Shown: positions 41,948-61,859 of the stretch, piece after piece
How the letters are laid out: every line of letters begins with the position of its first letter
Numbering within the stretch: the first letter of the stretch is position 1
NCBI RefSeq assembly: GCF_012516315.1
Contig: NZ_CP051185.1
Span: forward strand, 703,459 to 767,458
Origin: Limnospira fusiformis SAG 85.79
Lineage (GTDB): Bacteria > Cyanobacteriota > Cyanobacteriia > Cyanobacteriales > Microcoleaceae
Direction: 5' to 3'
DNA length: 64,000 bases
Position numbers and translations under genes: made by a program
Notes under the pieces: generated by a model
The model's input: only the letters and a program-made list of their open reading frames with translations
The model's database searches: none
Told to the model about the DNA's origin: nothing

Positions 41948-43784
41948 ATGACGAAAGCGAGTTTAAAGAAAGGCTTTGAGAAATCGAAGTTAATCAAGAC
42001 GTGCGTTCGGATGGAAACAAATTCCCTGGGCAAAAGTTCAGAGGAAAGTTTTCAAGCTCCAAAAGAGGATATTTCAAGCAGCTAAATCGGGACAGGATGC
42101 AAAGGCTAGAAAGTTGCAACGTCTATTGGTGAAGTCATATTATGCTCGACTCTTAGCAGTGCGACTGTAGGGGCGGGTTCCACGGTCAGCCATGCTTCCC
42201 AACAGTCAGCTTAATAAACCCGCCCTCCAAGATAATCAAGGCAAGAAAACGGCTGGAGTCGATGGAATGAGAGCAATCTCATCAAGACAAAGGTTTGAAC
42301 TTGTTGAGAATATTAAGGGAAACCTCAAAGCAAAACCACTGCGACGGGTGTGGATTCCAAAACCTGGTAGGGATGAAAAACGCCCTCTAGGAATACCCAC
42401 AATCCAAGATAGAGCCAGGCAAGCCTTGGTGAAGTCGGCACTTGAGCCCGAATGGGAATCAAGATTTGAAGGAACAAGCTATGGGTTTAGACCTGGACGG
42501 TCAGCCCATGACGCAATAGCACGAATCTATCTATGTATCAAACATAGTAGTTATTATGTGTTGGATGCTGATATAGCAAAGTGTTTCGACCGAATAAACC
42601 ATGATTACCTACTGTCCAAAATTCATTGTCCAAGCAGCCTAAAGAAAGACCTGAAACAGTTGCTTAAAGCTGGCGTGCTAGATAACGGTGTATTCGAGGA
42701 TACAGACTCAGGGACACCTCAAGGAGGGGTAATAAGTCCACTCCTAGCCAACATCGCACTGGATAGAATGGAAAGGTTAGTTAAGGAAATGTATCCAAAT
42801 AAAGGGACAACCACCCAGGTCAACCTAATAAGATACGCCGATGATTTTGTGGTCATATCCAAAGACTTAGGAATCATTGAACAGTGCAAAACTGCTATTT
42901 CTGAATGGTTAAAATCTGTAGGACTAGAAATAAAACCTGAAAAGACCCGAATCTGCCACACACTCAATCCTATCGAGTATAATGGCAAAACAGAAGAACC
43001 AGGGTTCGACTTTCTAGGTTTTAATATCAGGCAATATCCAGTAGGAAAGTATAAATCTGGAAAAACAGGTGGAGGAAACAGCCGATTAATCGGTCACAAA
43101 ACCTATATAAAACCCAGTAATAAAGCAGTTACAGCCCATACAGAAGTGATAAAAGGTGTAATTCAACAACATAAAACAGCACCTCAATCTGCCCTGATTG
43201 GTAAACTAAACCCAATCATAAGGGGATGGTCAAACTACTATTCAGCAGTAGTTTCAACAGAAACCTTTAATAAACTGGATAGCATAGTCTGGTTAATGTT
43301 ACGGGCATGGACAATTTCAAGATGCGGAAAGGCAAGTTACGAAAAGCTAGGAAACTACTTCCATAAAGGAACGGTTAAACTTAGCAATGGGAAAGAAAGA
43401 CATGAATCCTGGTTATTCAAGACTAAGGATGGACTCACATTATGGCAACATAACTGGACTCCATTGGTCAGACATACCATAATACGCCCTGACGCAACAC
43501 CATACGACGGAAATTGGACTTACTGGGCAACCAGGAAAGGACAAGCAATCGACACGCCAAACAGGGTAGCAAAACTACTCAAAAAGCAAAAAGGCAAGTG
43601 CGCCTGGTGCGGGCAATACATTACCCCATCAGACCTAATTGAAGTAGACCACATTGTACCTCGAAGCCTAGGTGGAAAGGATGAATACAAGAATCTTCAA
43701 TTACTGCACCACCACTGTCACGATGATAAAACGGCACTAGACAACGCCAACGCTGTGTCCTTAACAATGGAGCAGTCAAACTAG
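41948..43784 (+). pseudogene. Intron T1 maturase (RT-X-HNH), N-terminus broken
   Basis: The original ATG (41948, M-T-K-A-S-L-K-K-G) is followed by a frameshift and stop. A ~60-bp inverted-repeat element then interrupts the coding region at about 42166-42227. From 42226 to 43784 the frame is intact: RT with Y-A-D-D, maturase domain X, and C-terminal HNH (C-x2-C...H-I-V...C-H-D-D). An ATG inside the inserted element (42192) opens a 530-codon frame, so a truncated protein lacking about the first 70 residues could be made. Confidence 0.85.
42166..42227. mobile_element. MITE-like insertion in intron T1 maturase
   Basis: Compared with the related maturases, the GCGAGTGACC segment is replaced by about 60 bases bounded by GGGCGGGTT (42171-42179) and AACCCGCCC (42217-42225), a 9-bp perfect inverted repeat. 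Similar CCCGCCCCTACA sequence ends the minisatellite near 24480. It has no coding capacity and looks like a MITE. Confidence 0.65.
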
Positions 43785-53533: not shown

Positions 53534-53728
53534 TATTGAGAGAATCCTACACCGACTCCCATGGTCAGACGGAACCTAACCCCAGATTTTTTCCTTGAGG
53601 AGATAAGCGCCTTAAGAGAATCAGGAGGGGCGGAAAGTTTTTCCCCCCTTTGGTGGGTAAAATCCCGTCGGGTATGGGAAATTTTACCATGAATCTGAAC
53701 CCCCTTCAAAAGGGTAGGTCAGACAAGC

Positions 53729-54323
53729 TATAGCACAAAACAGAACAGTTAGGACGTATAATGGCAAGGATATCTACAGAAGACCCAAAAGGCCAGCCCC
53801 CTACAGTTACGACCTTAGACAAAAAGTTATTAATGCAATTGAACTAGACGGTATACCCAAAACCGAAGCCAGTCAAGTTTTCCATGTCAGCAGGAACACT
53901 ATCAATCTCTGGCTGCAAAGAAAAGAACACACCGGCGACTTCCTCCCTAAACCTAATCGCCCACCTGGTCATAGCCACCAAATTACCGACTGGCAGAAAT
54001 TCAAGGCTTTTGCCCAAGAGCATGGCCACCAAACCTCCGCTCAAATGGCTGAACTTTGGGATGACGACATCTCTCCTCGCACCATATCCAGAGCCTTGAA
54101 GAAAATTGGCTTCACCTGAAAAAAAACTTACGGCTACCAAGAACGTGATGAGCAACAGCGAGAGGAGTTTATTGCTCAGATTGAACAGATGGAGCCGGAA
54201 GGGTTGGTTTACCTCGATGAAGCTGGCATGAATAGTCAAGACTCCGATTATCCTTATGGTTACTGCCAGGAAGGACAACGCTTCCATGCCCTCAAATCCG
54301 GGAAGAGGCAGGGCAGGGTGAGC
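53729..54323 (+). mobile_element. IS630-family element, copy e, 5' part
   Basis: Begins TATAGCACAAAACAG and runs through the transposase start and part of the DDE domain. At 54323 it is cut by copy f, which inserted at a TA. The remaining right half is missing; beyond copy f there is group II intron sequence instead. Confidence 0.88.
53790..54323 (+). pseudogene. IS630 transposase, truncated (copy e)
   Basis: The start codon is AGG instead of ATG, a change shared with copy f. A TGA replaces the Arg codon just before the 8-A tract, and the DDE domain is cut off by copy f. Confidence 0.85.
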
Positions 54324-55285
54324 TATAGCACTAGTCAATACGGTTAGGACGCAGCCTTGAGAACAGAATCCATGGCATCATGGAGAGAATCAAACTGCTC
54401 AATACAATGGCGAATGCGGGCTTTCAACCACGACCAACATTTCTCTATCTTGTTGAGGCCTGGCGAATAAGGCGGAAGATAGAGTAAACGGCATTGAGCC
54501 GCCTCCACCAGTTCAGCAATCCGCCCCCCTTTATGAAACGTTGCATTGTCCAATACTAGAGTCTGACCTGGCTTCAATGTTGGAATTAAGATGAACTCCA
54601 ACCACAACTCAAACACTGTCCGATTACAACAACCCTCAAAGGTAAAGGGAGCTAAGAGTTGTTGATCACACCATGGGGCCATATAGCTCACCCTGCCCTG
54701 CCTCTTCCCTGATTTGAGGGCATGGAAGCGTTGTCCTTCCTGGCAGTAACCATAAGGATAATCGGAGTCTTGACTATTCATGCCAGCTTCATCGAGGTAA
54801 ACCAACCCTTCCGGCTCCATCTGTTCAATCTGAGCAATAAACTCCTCTCGCTGTTGCTTCCAACGTTCTTGGTAGCCGTAAGTTTTTTTTTCTGGTGAAG
54901 CCAATTTTCTTCAAGGCTCTGGATATGGTGCGAGGAGAGATGTCGTCATCCCAAAGTTCAGCCATCTGAGCGGAGGTTTTGTGGCCATGCTCTTGGGCAA
55001 AAGCCTTGAATTTTTGCCAGTCGGTAATTTTGTGGTTATTGCCAGGTGGGTGATTAGGTTGAGGGAGGAAGTCTCCGGTCTGTGCTTTTCTTTGCAGCCA
55101 GAGATTAATGGTGTTCCGGCTGACATGGAAAAGTTGACTGGCTTATGTTTTGGGCATACCGTCTAGTTCAATTGCATTAATAACTTTTTGTCTGAGGTCG
55201 TAACTATAGGGGGCTGGCCTTTTGGGTCTTCTTAGTCATCTCGTCCTCTCCATTATACGTCCTAACTTTCCTGTCTTGTGCTATA
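54324..55285 (-). mobile_element. IS630-family element, copy f
   Basis: A full-length copy (~962 bp) inserted in copy e, with ends TATAGCACTAG and (inverted) TATAGCACAAGAC. The right end abuts the middle of the outer ORF-less intron (55286). Confidence 0.9.
54344..55220 (-). pseudogene. IS630 transposase, degenerate (copy f)
   Basis: Three lesions: AGG at the start position, TAA replacing the Glu codon in K-T-E-A-S (near 55144), and a nine-A tract that frameshifts into the DDE domain. The C-terminal DDE part (54344-54904) is still open. Confidence 0.88.
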
Positions 55286-55414
55286 CCTACACAGACTTTT
55301 AAAAGTACCCCGGTGGAAAGGACAAGTCTAAAGATGGAACGCCCATATAAACGGAACGTTTAAACCCCTCATTGGCTCTGCCTCACGGCAGAGCGTGAAA
55401 AGTGTAAGCGTATG

Positions 55415-57146
55415 GTGCGAGACGTTCGGGTATGAAATAGGGCTGAAATGCCCGAAATAACTACCCGGTGAGGATTCCAGCTCCGAATCTGGATATAAGG
55501 AGACCTCTCCTGACCATCCTCATAACTGGTTATATGTCCCGACGCTTAGGGAACTAAGCAAGGCAGGGAACTCAAGGTCATAAACGAACTGAGAAATCAG
55601 GGAGTAGAGAGTAACGGCGATAGCCACCCCCAGTTTTGGAAATCATAACTCCAGGATTGAAGCGGGGAACGGAAGGCGTGAGGTAGAACCTACTACCAAG
55701 ACGCGACCACTGCCAACCATCTATGATTAGGAAGACCGAATGTCCGACTTGAACCATCGTAATACACTAGCAGCGAAATAGGTTGACACGCTGCGCTCAA
55801 AAGGGCAAGGGGAAAAGTAGGGGGTTCGTGCGACTACCTACACAGACCTTTAAAAGTACCCCGGCGGAGAGGACAAATCTAACGATGGAATGCCCATATA
55901 ATCGGAACATTGTAACCCCTCTAATGCTCTGCCTATAAACAAGTGAGTAATGCTATTCACAAGGCAGTAGTGAAAAATGTAAGCGCATGGTGCGAGACGT
56001 TCGGGTATGAAATAGGGCTGAAATGCCCGAAATAACTACCCGGTGAGGATTCCAGCTCCGAATCTGGATATAAGGAGACCTCTCCTGACCATCCTCATAA
56101 CTGGTTATATGTCCCGACGCTTAGGGAACTAAGCAAGGCAGGGAACTCAAGGTCATAAACGAACTGAGAAATCAGGGAGTAGAGAGTAACGGCGATAGCC
56201 ACCCCCAGTTTTGGAAATCATAACTCCAGGATTGAAGCGGGGAACGGAAGGCGTGAGGTAGAACCTACTACCAAGACGCGACCACTGCCAACCATCTATG
56301 ATTAGCAAGACCGAATGTCCGACTTGAACCATCGTAATACACTAGCAGCGAAATAGGTTGACACGCTGCGCTCAAAAGGGCAAGGGGAAAAGTAGGGGGT
56401 TCGTGCGACTACCTACACAGACCTTTAAAAGTACCCCGGCGGAGAGGACAAATCTAACGATGGAATGCCCATATAATCGGAACGTTGTAACCCCTCTAAT
56501 GCTCTGCCTATAAACAAGTGAGTAATGCTATTCACAAGGCAGTAGTGAAAAATGTAAGCGCATGCTTAGAGGGTGAAGGATGTGACCAGAAGCTAAAGCC
56601 CAATTGTCATGGTTGGGATATGCCCACAGGTCACGGTGGGGATATAGATACTGCGGTCAGTAAGAGTATAATGGCGAGGACGAGTTTAAAGACTACGTGG
56701 TGCATATAGCTCTGAACATCGAAGTAGAAAGCAGGTCTCTTGATTCTGCTCCTTTGACAAATAGGGTATCCACACCAGGAGCCGTGTGATGGGAAACTAT
56801 CAAGCACGGTTCTGAATGGTAGAGGGTGAAGGTGACTTCACTCTCGACCCCTAACCTTAGAGGGTGAAGGATGTGACCAGAAGCTAAAGCCCAATTGTCA
56901 TGGTTGGGATATGCCCACAGGTCACGGTGGGGATATAGATACTGCGGTCAGTAAGAGTATAATGGCGAGGACGAGTTTAAAGACTACGTGGTGCATATAG
57001 CTCTGAACATCGAAGTAGAAAGCAGGTCTCTTGATTCTGCTCCTTTGACAAATAGGGTATCCACACCAGGAGCCGTGTGATGGGAAACTATCAAGCACGG
57101 TTCTGAATGGGAGAGGGTGAAGGTGACTTCACTCTCGACCCCTAAC
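55415..57146 (+). mobile_element. Middle ORF-less group II intron M, itself interrupted
   Basis: 5' segment 55415-55989 (575 nt, starts GTGCGAGACG) and 3' segment 56856-57146 (291 nt, ends CCCCTAAC). Domain V is at 57070-57103. It is interrupted after GTAAGCGCATG by the inner copy, at the position homologous to its own insertion site in the outer intron. Without the insert it is 866 nt. Confidence 0.95.
55990..56855 (+). mobile_element. Inner ORF-less group II intron I (complete, 866 nt)
   Basis: Starts GTGCGAGACG at 55990, ends CCCCTAAC at 56855, domain V at 56779-56812. Its 575- and 291-nt segments match the middle intron with only about three differences by eye (near 55737/56312, 55906/56482 and in the 3' part). 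The uninterrupted site in this copy (GCATG-CTTAGAGGG at 56561) proves exactly where the copies are inserted. It contains the maturase stub M-A-R-T-S-L-K-T-T-W-C-I then stop. Confidence 0.95.
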
Positions 57147-57543
57147 CCTTTAAGGGGAAAGGATGTGACTGAAAGCTAATGCCTAACTGTAATGGTTAGG
57201 ATATGCCCACTAGTCACGGTGTAGATATAGATACTGCGATTAGTAGGAGTTTAATGGCGAAAGCGAGTTTAAAGACTATCGCAAGCATATAGCTCTAAAA
57301 GTTGAAGTACGAAAGCAGGGGGTTGTAGCCCTGTTCCCACTGACAAAGGGGTATCTACATCAGGAGCCGTGTGCTGGGAAACTCGCAAGCACGGTTTGGA
57401 ATTGGAGTTGGGGAAGGCGACTTCCCTTTCGACCATAACTGCTTATTGATTAAGCCGTCAATAATTAAGATTTGTTGCTAAGGGATATGCGCTAATTATC
57501 CTGTGTGTTAAGACTTAATGGGGTGTATTTTGTGCGCAACGGT

Positions 57544-57580
57544 ACGACTATCGGGTTGAGCGATATTACCCGATAGTCGT
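57544..57580. terminator. Perfect 13-bp inverted repeat
   Basis: ACGACTATCGGGT (57544-57556) and ACCCGATAGTCGT (57568-57580) form a perfect stem with an 11-base loop, just downstream of the minus-strand tRNA gene. It may be a tRNA transcription terminator or a protein-binding palindrome. Confidence 0.55.
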
Positions 57581-57602
57581 CAGGATAAGGGTTTAAGTTA
57601 AA

Positions 57603-57676: not shown

Positions 57677-58434
57677 GAGTTTTATCTCACATTTAGCTAT
57701 GATAGCACATTATATCTTTAATGTGCGAGACGTTCAGGCATTAAATAGGGTTTAGATACCTGAAATAACCGCCTGGTGGGGAATTCAACCTATTGGTTGA
57801 ATACAAGAAGCGCACTTCTGACCATTCCCATAACTGTTTATATGTCCCGAAAATTGGTATCATACGATACCAAATCAAGGCAGGGAACCCAAGGTCAACA
57901 CACTTTGCAACACAACGTAATAATTCTTAACATAACGGAATAGTTACGGCAAAGGTGAGGGTAACTGCGATAGCCACCCCTAGTTTCAGGATTCACAACC
58001 TTGGGACTAAAGCGGGGAACGGAAGGCTTCGAGGTGTAACCTAATACCAGAAATGAGACCACTGCCAACCATCCATGATTAGGGAAACCGAATGTCCGGC
58101 TTGAACCATCGTCAATACTGAGCAGCGAAATAGGTTGATACGCTGCGTTCAAAAGAGCAAGGGGAAAAGTAGGAGGCTATTAATACTACTTACACAGACC
58201 TTTAAAGTACCCCGGTGGAAAGGACAAATCTAAAGATGGAATGCCCATATAAACGGAACGTTTTAAGTCCTCCTGGACTCTGACTATCTGGTCGAGGTAG
58301 TTAGTAGGGATAAGTGTAACCGCAAGTCCTAGAGGATGTGAGATGTGACCAAAAGCCAACGCCCGGCTGTAATGGACGGGATATGCTAACAGGTCACGGT
58401 TTGATTGTAAGAATAGAGTCTAGTAGGTGTTTAA

Positions 58435-61066
58435 ATGACGCAAGCGAGTTTAAAGAAAGGCTTTGGCAAGTCCAAACCAATCAAGACTACGAATAACGTA
58501 TGGAAAGCTATTCCTTGGGCTAAGGTTCAGCGGAAAGTTTTCAAGCTCCAAAAGAGGATATTTCAAGCAGCTAAATCGGGGCCGGATGCAAAGGTAAGAA
58601 GGTGGCAACGTCTATTGGTGAAGTCATCTTATGCCCGACTCTTAGCAGTACGGCGAGTGACCCAAGACAATCAAGGAAAGAAAACAGCCGGAGTGGATGG
58701 AGTGATAGCAATATCCCCTAAGCAAAGGTTAGACTTAGCCGAGAAAATCAAAGGAAATATCAAAGCAAAACCACTGCGTAGGGTGTGGATTCCAAAACCT
58801 GGTAGGGATGAGAAACGCCCGCTGGGAATACCCACTATCCAAGATAGAGCGAGGCAAGCCTTGGTTAAATCGGCTCTCGAACCTGAATGGGAATCGAGAT
58901 TTGAAGGCACAAGCTATGGGTTCAGAACGGGTAGGTCAACCCAAGATGCAATTGGTAGAATTTACCCTGCCATCAAAACAAGTAGTTATTATGTACTTGA
59001 TGCACGTGCGAGACGTTCGGGTATGAAATAGGGCTGAAATGCCCGAAATAACTACCCGGTGAGGATTCCAGCTCCGAATCTGGATATAAGGAGACCTCTC
59101 CTGACCATCCTCATAACTGATTATATGTCCCGACGCTTAGGTAACTAAGCAAGGCAGGGAACTCAAGGTCATAAACGAACTGAGAAATCAGGGAGTAGAG
59201 AGTAACGGCGATAGCCACCCCCAGTTTTGGAAATCATAACTCCAGGATTGAAGCGGGGAACGGAAGGCGTGAGGTAGAACCTACTACCAAGACGCGACCA
59301 CTGCCAACCATCTATGATTAGGAAGACCGAATGTCCGACTTGAACCATCGTAAAGCATGAGCAGCGAAATAGGTTGACACGCTGCGCCCAAAAGGGCAAG
59401 GGGAAAAGTGGGGGATTCTGCATTCTACCCACACAGACCTTTAGAAGTACCCCGGTGGATAGGACAAATCTAACGATGGAATGCCCATATAATCGGAACG
59501 TTGTAACCCCTCTAATGCTCTGTCCATAAACAAGTGAGTAATGCAATTCACAAGGCAGTAGTGAAAAATGTAAGCGCATGCTTAGAGGGCTAAGGATGTG
59601 ACCAGAAGCTAAAGCCCAATTGTCATGGTTGGGATATGCCCACAGGTCACGGTGTGGATATAGATACTGCGGTCAGTAAGAGTATAATGGCGAGGACGAG
59701 TTTAAAGACTACGTGCTGCATATAGCTCTGAACATCGAAGTAAAAAGCAGGTCTCTTGATTCTGCTCCTTTGACAAAACAGGGTATCCACACCAGGAGCC
59801 GTATGAAGGGAAACTTTCACGTATGGTTCTGAATGGGAGGAGATGGTGGTGACTCCATTCTCGACCCCTAACATATAGCCAAATGCTCTTACCGTGAACC
59901 ATGAATACCTACTGTCACAAATTCATTGTCCAAGCAGCCTGAAAAGAGACTTGAAACAATGGCTCAAAGCGGGTGTGCTAGATAACGGTGTATTCGAGGA
60001 TACAGAAACAGGGACACCTCAAGGAGGAGCGATAAGTCCACTATTGGCCAACATCGCCCTGGATGGAATGGAAAGAATAGTAAAAGAAATGTATCCTAAT
60101 AAAGGGACGACCACCCAGGTAAACCTAATAAGATATGCCGATGATTTTGTGGTCATATCCAAAGACCTAGAAATCATTGAACAGTGCAAAACTGCTATTT
60201 CCGAATGGTTAAAACCTGTAGGACTAAAAATTAAACCCGAAAAGACTCGAATATGCCATACACTCAATCCCATTGAGTACGAAGGTAAAACAGAGGAACC
60301 CGGCTTTGATTTTCTAGGATTCAACATCAGGCAATACCCTATAGGAAAATATCAATCCGGGAAAACAGGTGGAGCGGCGAGCCGATTAATCGGACACAAA
60401 ACCCACATTAAACCCAGCAATAAGGCAGTTAAAGCTCACACAGAAGTGATTAAAGGTGTAATCAGGAAGCATAAAACAGCACCTCAATCAGCCCTGATAA
60501 GCAGACTCAACCCAATAATACGAGGTTGGTCAAACTACTATTCAGGGGTAGTTTCAACAGAAGCCTTCAATAAACTAGACCATATAGTCTGGGAAATGTT
60601 AAGAGCATGGAAAGTTTGAAGATGCGGAAGGGCAAACCTACATGAAAAGCTAAGAAACTATTTCAGTCACGGAACGGTTAAACTTAGCAATAGGAAAGAA
60701 AGGTATGAAACTTGGTTATTCAAGACCAAGGATGGATTTCAGTTATGGAAACACAATTGGACTCCGATTGTCAGACACACCCTAATACGCCCAGACGCAA
60801 CACTTGATGACGGAAACTGGACTTACTGGGCAACCCGAAAAGGACAAGCAATTGACACACCAAATAGGGTAGCAAAACTACTCAAAAAGCAAAAAGGCAA
60901 GTGTACCTGGTGCGGGCAATACTTTACCCCATCAGACTTAGTTGAAGTAGACCACATTGTACCTAGAAGCCACGGTGGAAAGGATGAATACAAAAATCTT
61001 CAACTGCTACACCGCCACACCCGCGACAATAAGACGGCATTAGATGACGCAAAGCTGTGTTCTTAA
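58435..61066 (+). pseudogene. Intron C maturase (RT-X-HNH), interrupted and decayed
   Basis: 5' part 58435-59005 (M-T-Q-A-S-L-K-K-G... to Y-Y-V-L-D-A) has an intact N-terminus, unlike T1 and B. After the inner intron the frame D-A-H-I-A-K-C resumes, but a 2-nt deletion near 59894 shifts it. The RT/X part is open from 59894 to a TGA at 60617-60619 (Ser codon in related copies), and further HNH-coding sequence follows to about 61066. It is not functional, even if spliced. Confidence 0.9.
59006..59872 (+). mobile_element. ORF-less group II intron inside intron C maturase
   Basis: Starts GTGCGAGACG at 59006, ends CCCCTAAC at 59872 (867 nt). Very similar to the inner and middle introns at 55415-57146, with a few differences. 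Inserted in the same orientation as its host after ...GATGCAC. The flank ATATAGCC continues the maturase motif D-x-D-I-A-K-C. Confidence 0.93.
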
Positions 61067-61859
61067 CAAAAGAAGCAATCAAACTAGGAGCCGTGTGAAG
61101 GGAAAACTTTCATGCACGGTTCTGAATGGGAGGGGTAGACCGTGAGGTCTATCTCGACCCCTAATTGAACTATAGCATTAGTCAAGGTGGTTAGGACGCA
61201 GCTTTGAGAACGGAATCCATGGCATCATGGAGAGAATCAAACTGCTCACGTGCAGTGGCGAATACGGGCTTTCAGCCACGACCAACATTTCTCTATCTTG
61301 TTGAGGTCTGGCGAATAAGGCGAAAGATAGAGTAAACGGCATTGAGCTGCCTCCACCAGTTCAGCAATCCGTCCCCCTTTATGAAACGTTGCATTGTCCA
61401 ATACTAGAGTCTGACCTGGCTTCAATGTTGGAATTAAGATGAACTCCAACCACAACTCAAACACTGTCCGATTACAACAACCCTCAAAGCTAAAGGGAGC
61501 TAAGAGTTGTTGATGACACCATGCGGCTATCATACTTACCCTGCCCTGCCTCTTCCCTGATTTGAGTGCATGGAAGCGTTTTCCTTCCTCGCAGTAACCA
61601 TAAGGGTAATCCGAGTCCTGACTATTCATGCCGGCTTCATCGAGGTAGACCACTTCTTGTGGCTCCATCTGTTCAATCTGAGCCATAAACTCCTCTCGCT
61701 GTTGCTCATCACGTTCTTGGTAGCCGTAAGTTTTTTTTTCTGGTGAAGCCAATTTTCTTCAAGGCTCTGGATATGGTGCGAGGAGAGATGTCGTCATCCC
61801 AAAGTTCAGCCATTTGAGCTGCTGTTTTGTCGCCATGCTCTTGGGCAAAAGCCTTGAAT

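Follow-up and report, generated by a model that had tools for sequence, protein, structure and literature searches.

We analysed a window of 64,000 nt, the whole stretch at positions 703,459 to 767,458 of contig NZ_CP051185.1 of Limnospira fusiformis SAG 85.79; five-digit positions below refer to this window and longer ones to a genome. The window holds ORF-less group II introns nested in one another, all on the + strand (Table 1), and we take their class to be IIB, CL-type. An uninterrupted inner intron of 866 nt splits a middle intron of the same length after nt 575, and this pair is inserted in a third, diverged intron, whose 3' segment resumes with CCTTTAAGGGG. The first-pass annotation, made from the letters, had named these junctions and the segment lengths of 575 and 291 nt, and they are present in the sequence; its "about three differences" between middle and inner intron are exactly three (intron nt 317, 495, and 831), and its placing of all levels on one strand holds.

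Table 1. Features of the intron nest and its neighborhood in the window
Feature	Position	Strand	Description or basis
IS, partial copy (+) and longer copy (-)	53726-55285		inverted repeats 53726-53770 / 55244-55288, long inverted arms
Outer intron, 5' remnant	55284-55414	+	from past EBS1, across domain II, into the 5' side of domain III; alignment
Target in outer domain III	55402-55414	+	IBS2 GTGTA 55402-55406, IBS1 CGTATG 55409-55414; EBS/IBS registers
Middle intron, 5' segment	55415-55989	+	nt 1-575
EBS1 of middle, CGTGCG	55827-55832	+	register analysis
Inner intron	55990-56855	+	complete, 866 nt
EBS2 of inner, TACAC	56338-56342	+	unsupervised register scan
EBS1 of inner, CGTGCG	56402-56407	+	register analysis
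Domain III of inner	56492-56573	+	unit nt 503-584; fold and covariation in relatives
Domain V-VI of inner	56777-56855	+	RF00029, 54.9 bits
Middle intron, 3' segment	56856-57146	+	nt 576-866; domain V/VI 57068-57146 (RF00029, 59.2 bits)
Outer intron, 3' segment	57147-57439	+	domain V/VI 57362-57439 (RF00029, 53.3 bits)
Sister ORF-less intron, EBS1 CTGCAT	59006-59871	+	inside RT gene of IEP intron 57723-61165

Each level has its own domain V/VI match to the covariance model RF00029 above the gathering score. The inner match scores lower than that of the middle intron because nt 831 is the sole difference there. This change, G831U in domain VI of the inner intron, is absent from all other 32 3' halves compared; it may weaken domain VI and, judged from the sequence, leaves splicing of the inner intron uncertain. 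Both the inner and the middle intron begin with GTGCG and end with CCTAAC, in agreement with the group II pattern of 5' GUGYG and 3' AY. The MFE of the 866-nt unit has a z-score of -5.0 (20 shuffles); its MFE fold recovers domain III and domains V/VI and merges domains I and II, and covariation was computed for domain III alone.

The 5' segment of the outer intron aligns to the unit only from about nt 421, the first 420 nt or so being gone. The outer intron thus has no 5' splice site and no EBS1 or EBS2 and lacks most of domain I, and is therefore unable to splice. Of the three-level nest first proposed, two complete introns nested in a third stand, but the third is a 5'-truncated remnant, and the suggested sequential splicing of all three levels fails at this locus. 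As read from its sequence, the window locus is two complete introns inside the remnant of another. The twintron arrangement, a complete intron within a complete intron, is found here (inner in middle) and at a second locus, L029, described below; a complete outer level is lacking in the window.

The IS marks the point where the outer intron is broken off on its 5' side, and its left junction is conserved in Arthrospira sp. PCC 9108 (CP066886.1; 6,763,964 bp), a separately sequenced genome used for comparison. It carries transposase-like ORFs on both strands and is presumably IS630-like; its inverted copies form a long palindrome adjoining the truncated outer intron. Upstream of the IS lie an acetyltransferase-like ORF (named by eye) and then intergenic DNA, and no intron was seen in either. 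On the other side, 57440-57600 is a short repeat, MITE-like by appearance only; of the 40 matches listed for the query in PCC 9108, some two dozen are partial matches to it. Further downstream, Pfam recognizes both split halves of the IEP intron's RT gene, and the equivalent domain III site of this intron lies 108 nt upstream of the ORF start. The ORF at 42192-43784 has RT, maturase, and HNH domains and lacks most of the N-terminal RT domain; the solved chain closest to it is 6me0_C, which we take to be the T. elongatus T.el4h maturase. Elsewhere in the genome, two 609-aa ORFs (L069 and L053) have RT, maturase, and HNH domains.

Position and recognition of the insertion site

The insertion point lies in the basal stem of ribozyme domain III. 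Of 54 distinct cores collected from empty sites, 52 were aligned; the two excluded were one interrupted by an IS and one that proved to be occupied. In this alignment the insertion point is on the 3' strand of domain III. Covariation was computed on 40 of the 52, after removal of 11 sequences of the 866-nt subfamily or its near relatives, whose 3' strands are offset, and of one sequence carrying an indel at the insertion site. RNAalifold predicted 17 pairs from the 40 sequences, 10 of them with two-sided changes. The insertion lies between alignment columns 104 and 105, and two-sided changes occur at 37-107, 39-105, and 24-114. In a structure named after inspection of the alignment, 85.2% of the cells of the 40 sequences pair, compared with 76.5% in shuffles, and for the same set and structure, likewise named after inspection, two-sided changes number 68 against 24.7 in shuffles. 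The pair-type count of this domain III structure is not above that of shuffles (486 of 500 reach it), and 21, 35, and 20 of the 40 sequences do not pair at columns 34-110, 35-109, and 36-108, respectively. The intron's own MFE fold gives domain III at nt 503-584 with an 8-bp stem and leaves the site unpaired beside the helix, not inside it. Domain IV, the ORF domain, is ruled out as the insertion site by the fold and the covariation.

Recognition was examined through the EBS1 loops, which were recognized in 86 of the 135 5' ends in the fetched stretches (49 were without one) and gave 54 distinct exon/EBS1 pairs. In the register of nt 413-418 a mean of 4.52 of 6 positions pair, compared with 1.69-2.89 in 14 other registers, and none of 20000 shuffles reached as high a value. 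An unsupervised scan returned EBS1 at nt 413-418 and then EBS2 at nt 349-353 with exon positions -13 to -9. The domain III strand TGTAAGCGYATG plus the preceding base contains the targets of both, so that EBS1-IBS1 and EBS2-IBS2 pairing, as in group II introns, are found together at the site.

EBS1 variants mostly track their targets: CGTGCG goes with CGYATG, CGTCCG with CGGATG (2894875), and CTTGCG with CGCAAG at 4730052 (by eye, in the same register). The exceptions are CGTCCG and CATCCG at CGTATG sites (1254218 and 3268042), and CGTGCG at CGGATG (1886598), CGTATA (244956, 1574062, and 1868752), and CGCAAG (3122395). At C1:4181271 (L035) an intron lies in apical domain III after GTGAGT, its EBS1 ACTTAC being 6/6 paired; this is a possible second domain III homing site.

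Use of the site across the genome

The first-pass annotation did not extend to the domain III site, its near-universal use by the subfamily, or the fully complete three-level nest at L029. Genome-wide there are 22 uninterrupted 866-nt copies with 99-100% identity, the inner intron itself included. A pattern search found 43 exact 28-nt subfamily 5' ends (some of them from copies cut short further on) compared with none in a reversed control, and 39 exact domain III/intron junctions, two with variant starts, again with none in the control; both counts are therefore far beyond chance. As many as 38 of the 43 exact 5' ends lie at the domain III point of another group II intron (37 with the exact motif and one with GCACATG). 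Four follow the RT-gene motif GATGC (GATGCAC, GATGCGG twice, and GATGCAG), and the last abuts the 3' end of another copy. Of the copies whose 3' end was examined, 23 of 25 end in CCTAAC, one in CCTACC, and one (2894875) is unclear. Directly after CCTAAC-ending copies inserted in domain III the interrupted strand restarts, with no target duplication.

Occupancy was scored by pattern at 147 domain III sites in 76 stretches (831,870 bases), 37 of which were occupied. Non-self sites reading CGNATG were occupied in 25 of 42 cases, compared with 6 of 66 other sites (7 of 66 if 3168680, scored empty, is counted, as it holds an intron with another start; Fisher p=2.8e-8 from 6/66), a test that, like the shuffles, overstates independence because copies and hosts are related. 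Matching non-self sites were empty in 17 cases, nine of them of one type reading TCGTATG. The subfamily also inserts in itself: self sites were occupied in 6 of 39 cases and empty in 33, and in seven hosts the domain III is that of the subfamily itself (the copies in them start at 759448, 3122970, 3123545, 3160593, 3349197, 3795758, and 3381483), the host of copy 3160593 being an RT-gene-homing sister that starts at 3161168. In the window, the inner intron keeps an intact, unoccupied target site of its own (56564|56565), and the domain III site of the sister intron at 59006-59871 is unoccupied too.

The L029 nest (C1:3347747-3350372, 2626 nt, minus strand) consists of host, middle, and inner intron, each with its 5' end and an RF00029 domain V/VI match. 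It lies at the 3' end of a TnpB-like ORF (L029:6359-7375, minus strand; Pfam OrfB_IS605 and Cas12f1-like_TNB). The corresponding site is empty in PCC 9108, where the flank runs uninterrupted as AATTTAGAA|AAATCGC with small differences after it; the flank match extends over 1047 nt on the 5' side (94%) but only about 125 nt on the 3' side, the next 3' part matching elsewhere in PCC 9108. The L029 host is 4/6 paired with its exon.

Other nests involve RT genes. At L026 the host is a sister intron lodged in an RT gene, and a copy occupies its domain III; at L025 three 5' halves and two 3' halves are stacked on a host that likewise interrupts an RT gene. By eye, the RT frame continues across the exon ends at L025 and L026 (YYILDADIAKCFDR and YYVLDADIAKCFDR). 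Among the five RT-gene insertions with both flanks examined the frame is kept in these two and lost in three (window 59006, 4430907, and 4524554). The 5' ends at window 59006-59871, C1:1142954, 3161168, and 4323544 fall at one codon position (VLDA|D) of IEP RT genes, and EBS1 reads CTGCAT in two of these four. In the outermost L025 copy (C1:3122395), nt 451-454 are changed from CGGA to TTCT in a 5' half otherwise identical to the consensus.

In PCC 9108 the domain III/intron junction type occurs 13 times. Searching one genome per species across 84,980 species, a set from which SAG 85.79 itself may have been withheld, we found the junction pattern only in PCC 9108; among 59 genomes of the family (SAG 85.79 included) it is present in 2. 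The pattern is strict, and distant equivalents would be missed by it. The arrangement of flank, IS, and truncated intron at the window locus is common to both genomes; what is nested there is not the same, and in PCC 9108 the flank on the tRNA side is found some 30 kb off, oriented the opposite way. PCC 9108 also has, at L097, a host of the window-outer type with a normal 5' start and one uninterrupted copy inside it (97.2% over 705 nt, 96.5% over 374 nt); another element breaks the 3' half of this host.

Origin and meaning of the nests

We propose, with a probability of roughly three in four, that two complete 866-nt ORF-less introns are nested here in a truncated third, that their subfamily likely retrohomes into domain III of its kin and of itself, and that the nests would have to splice from the inside out. 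Retrohoming would use the RT of a partner intron, that is, an IEP encoded elsewhere in the genome and acting in trans, and EBS1/EBS2 would direct it to the basal stem of domain III in related introns and in the subfamily itself. Since this target lies within the intron itself, every self-insertion would replace the site that it fills with a fresh one, and nothing built in would bring nesting to an end. Inner-first splicing would be obligate, domain III of the host being split: domain III helps to brace domain V (PMC4476101, citing Robart 2014), and an interrupted host should therefore wait for removal of the inner intron. We put at even odds a wider reading of the same data, in which a selfish ribozyme has tuned EBS1/EBS2 to a near-invariant domain III strand of kin and self, so that its target is hardly mutable and is renewed with each insertion, and each layer silences the one below until it is spliced, an open-ended but ordered recursion.

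The alternative that survives best, tentative but clearly worth weighing, is that the nests, though built by homing, no longer splice and persist as fossils ("zombie" nests) that pile up in non-coding DNA. The truncated outer intron of the window and the private domain VI change of the inner would fit such decay, as would nests that are IS-broken or have unmatched halves, the incomplete pairing of the L029 host with its exon, and the loss of the RT frame at three of five insertions. Group II mobility requires spliced intron RNA, however, and the near identity of the 22 uninterrupted copies points to recent movement; the RT frame kept at L025 and L026 also speaks against dead introns.

It is improbable that the stack arose by tandem duplication or by homologous recombination between repeats, with no nested insertion. 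Unequal halves occur at five loci (an extra 3' half at C1:3506605, 3801752, and 4428849; an extra 5' half at 3122395 and 3795183), and copy 1886598 directly precedes another copy's start. Homologous recombination therefore also adds or removes layers. As the source of the nests, however, it would have to produce a balanced order of 5', 5', whole, 3', and 3' segments at exact intron ends, and the use of one site across many different hosts with no target duplication. Moreover, private changes aside, the middle and inner haplotypes differ and each is found at other loci; together with the empty L029 site in PCC 9108, this led us to reject tandem duplication as the origin. At C1:4799950-4802415 (L040), one strand carries five 3' halves in tandem, one of them interrupted by other DNA, plus a fragment; this may be what a deep nest or repeated recombination has left behind.

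Collapsed or misjoined repeats, the doubt raised at first and one that a highly repeated unit invites, are a very remote explanation, as the 6,423,694-bp genome was closed with ONT reads >35 kb at 114x and Illumina-polished, and the separately sequenced PCC 9108 has the same junction type 13 times.

The proposed retrohoming into domain III can be set beside the nested group II introns known from Methanosarcina, Thermosynechococcus, Trichodesmium, and lycophyte mitochondria (PMC4424553, PMC2882425, PMC4649490, PMC10012718). In Methanosarcina acetivorans, up to five introns are nested at a perpetual homing site (Dai & Zimmerly 2003, as cited in PMC4424553 and PMC2882425), and the same two sources ascribe the nests to repeated site-specific homing into group II introns and deletion by homologous recombination. 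Repeated insertion into related introns and changes by recombination are found here as well. Going by the 2003 title, however, homing there is into related intron ORFs, whereas in Limnospira an ORF-less invader enters a domain III helix; 38 of the 43 5' ends lie there, and only the 4 of 43 RT-gene insertions form a Methanosarcina-like minority. In T. elongatus, identical ORF-less F3 introns occupy one conserved site of diverged F1 relatives (Mohr et al. 2010, PMC2882425); their hosts, according to the same source, include the ORF-less TeI3h, and F3 was mobilized in trans in assays. The F3 site is described as lying in domain IV, between the first and second ATG of the IEP ORF, not in domain III, and the PMC2882425 passages describe no self-insertion of F3, whereas the Limnospira subfamily inserts in itself.

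The twintron of Trichodesmium erythraeum, with the inner intron in domain I and sequential splicing demonstrated (Pfreundt & Hess 2015, PMC4649490), is likewise a cyanobacterial group II twintron with the inner intron in a structural domain. As described, it is one case of two distantly related IEP-bearing introns, whereas the target in Limnospira is common to a subfamily. Self-invasion of a group II intron has a counterpart in the hypermobile cox1i1149g2 of Phlegmariurus squarrosus, the source of the internal intron in its own twintron (Zumkeller 2020, as reported in PMC10012718), but that intron is plant mitochondrial. A pipeline described in PMC8919778 misses the outer introns of twintrons. 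Judged by title or abstract opening, no domain III homing site was found in the open-licence PMC literature searched. Within the literature covered, a self-renewing target in domain III used by an entire ORF-less subfamily appears to be new, and is set apart from the known nests as their sources describe them.

The nests would offer a natural system, in a culturable organism, where RNA structure by itself would determine the splicing order of the introns. They make it testable whether ORF-less introns can go on spreading after ordinary targets fill, by way of a constrained part of their own core, and they bear on the rise of layered, protein-dependent splicing from self-splicing introns.

A second intron type probably nests at the domain II/III junction, to judge from breaks in the unit. 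In at least seven places in PCC 9108 among the matches listed (C1:2078669, 5756379, 5528675, 4883515, 1792221, 2381858, and 2326933), the match to the unit ends at nt 498 or close to it, and a match to another intron follows immediately. L086 also shows such a break, and the intron found there resembles the IEP intron at 57723 of the window.
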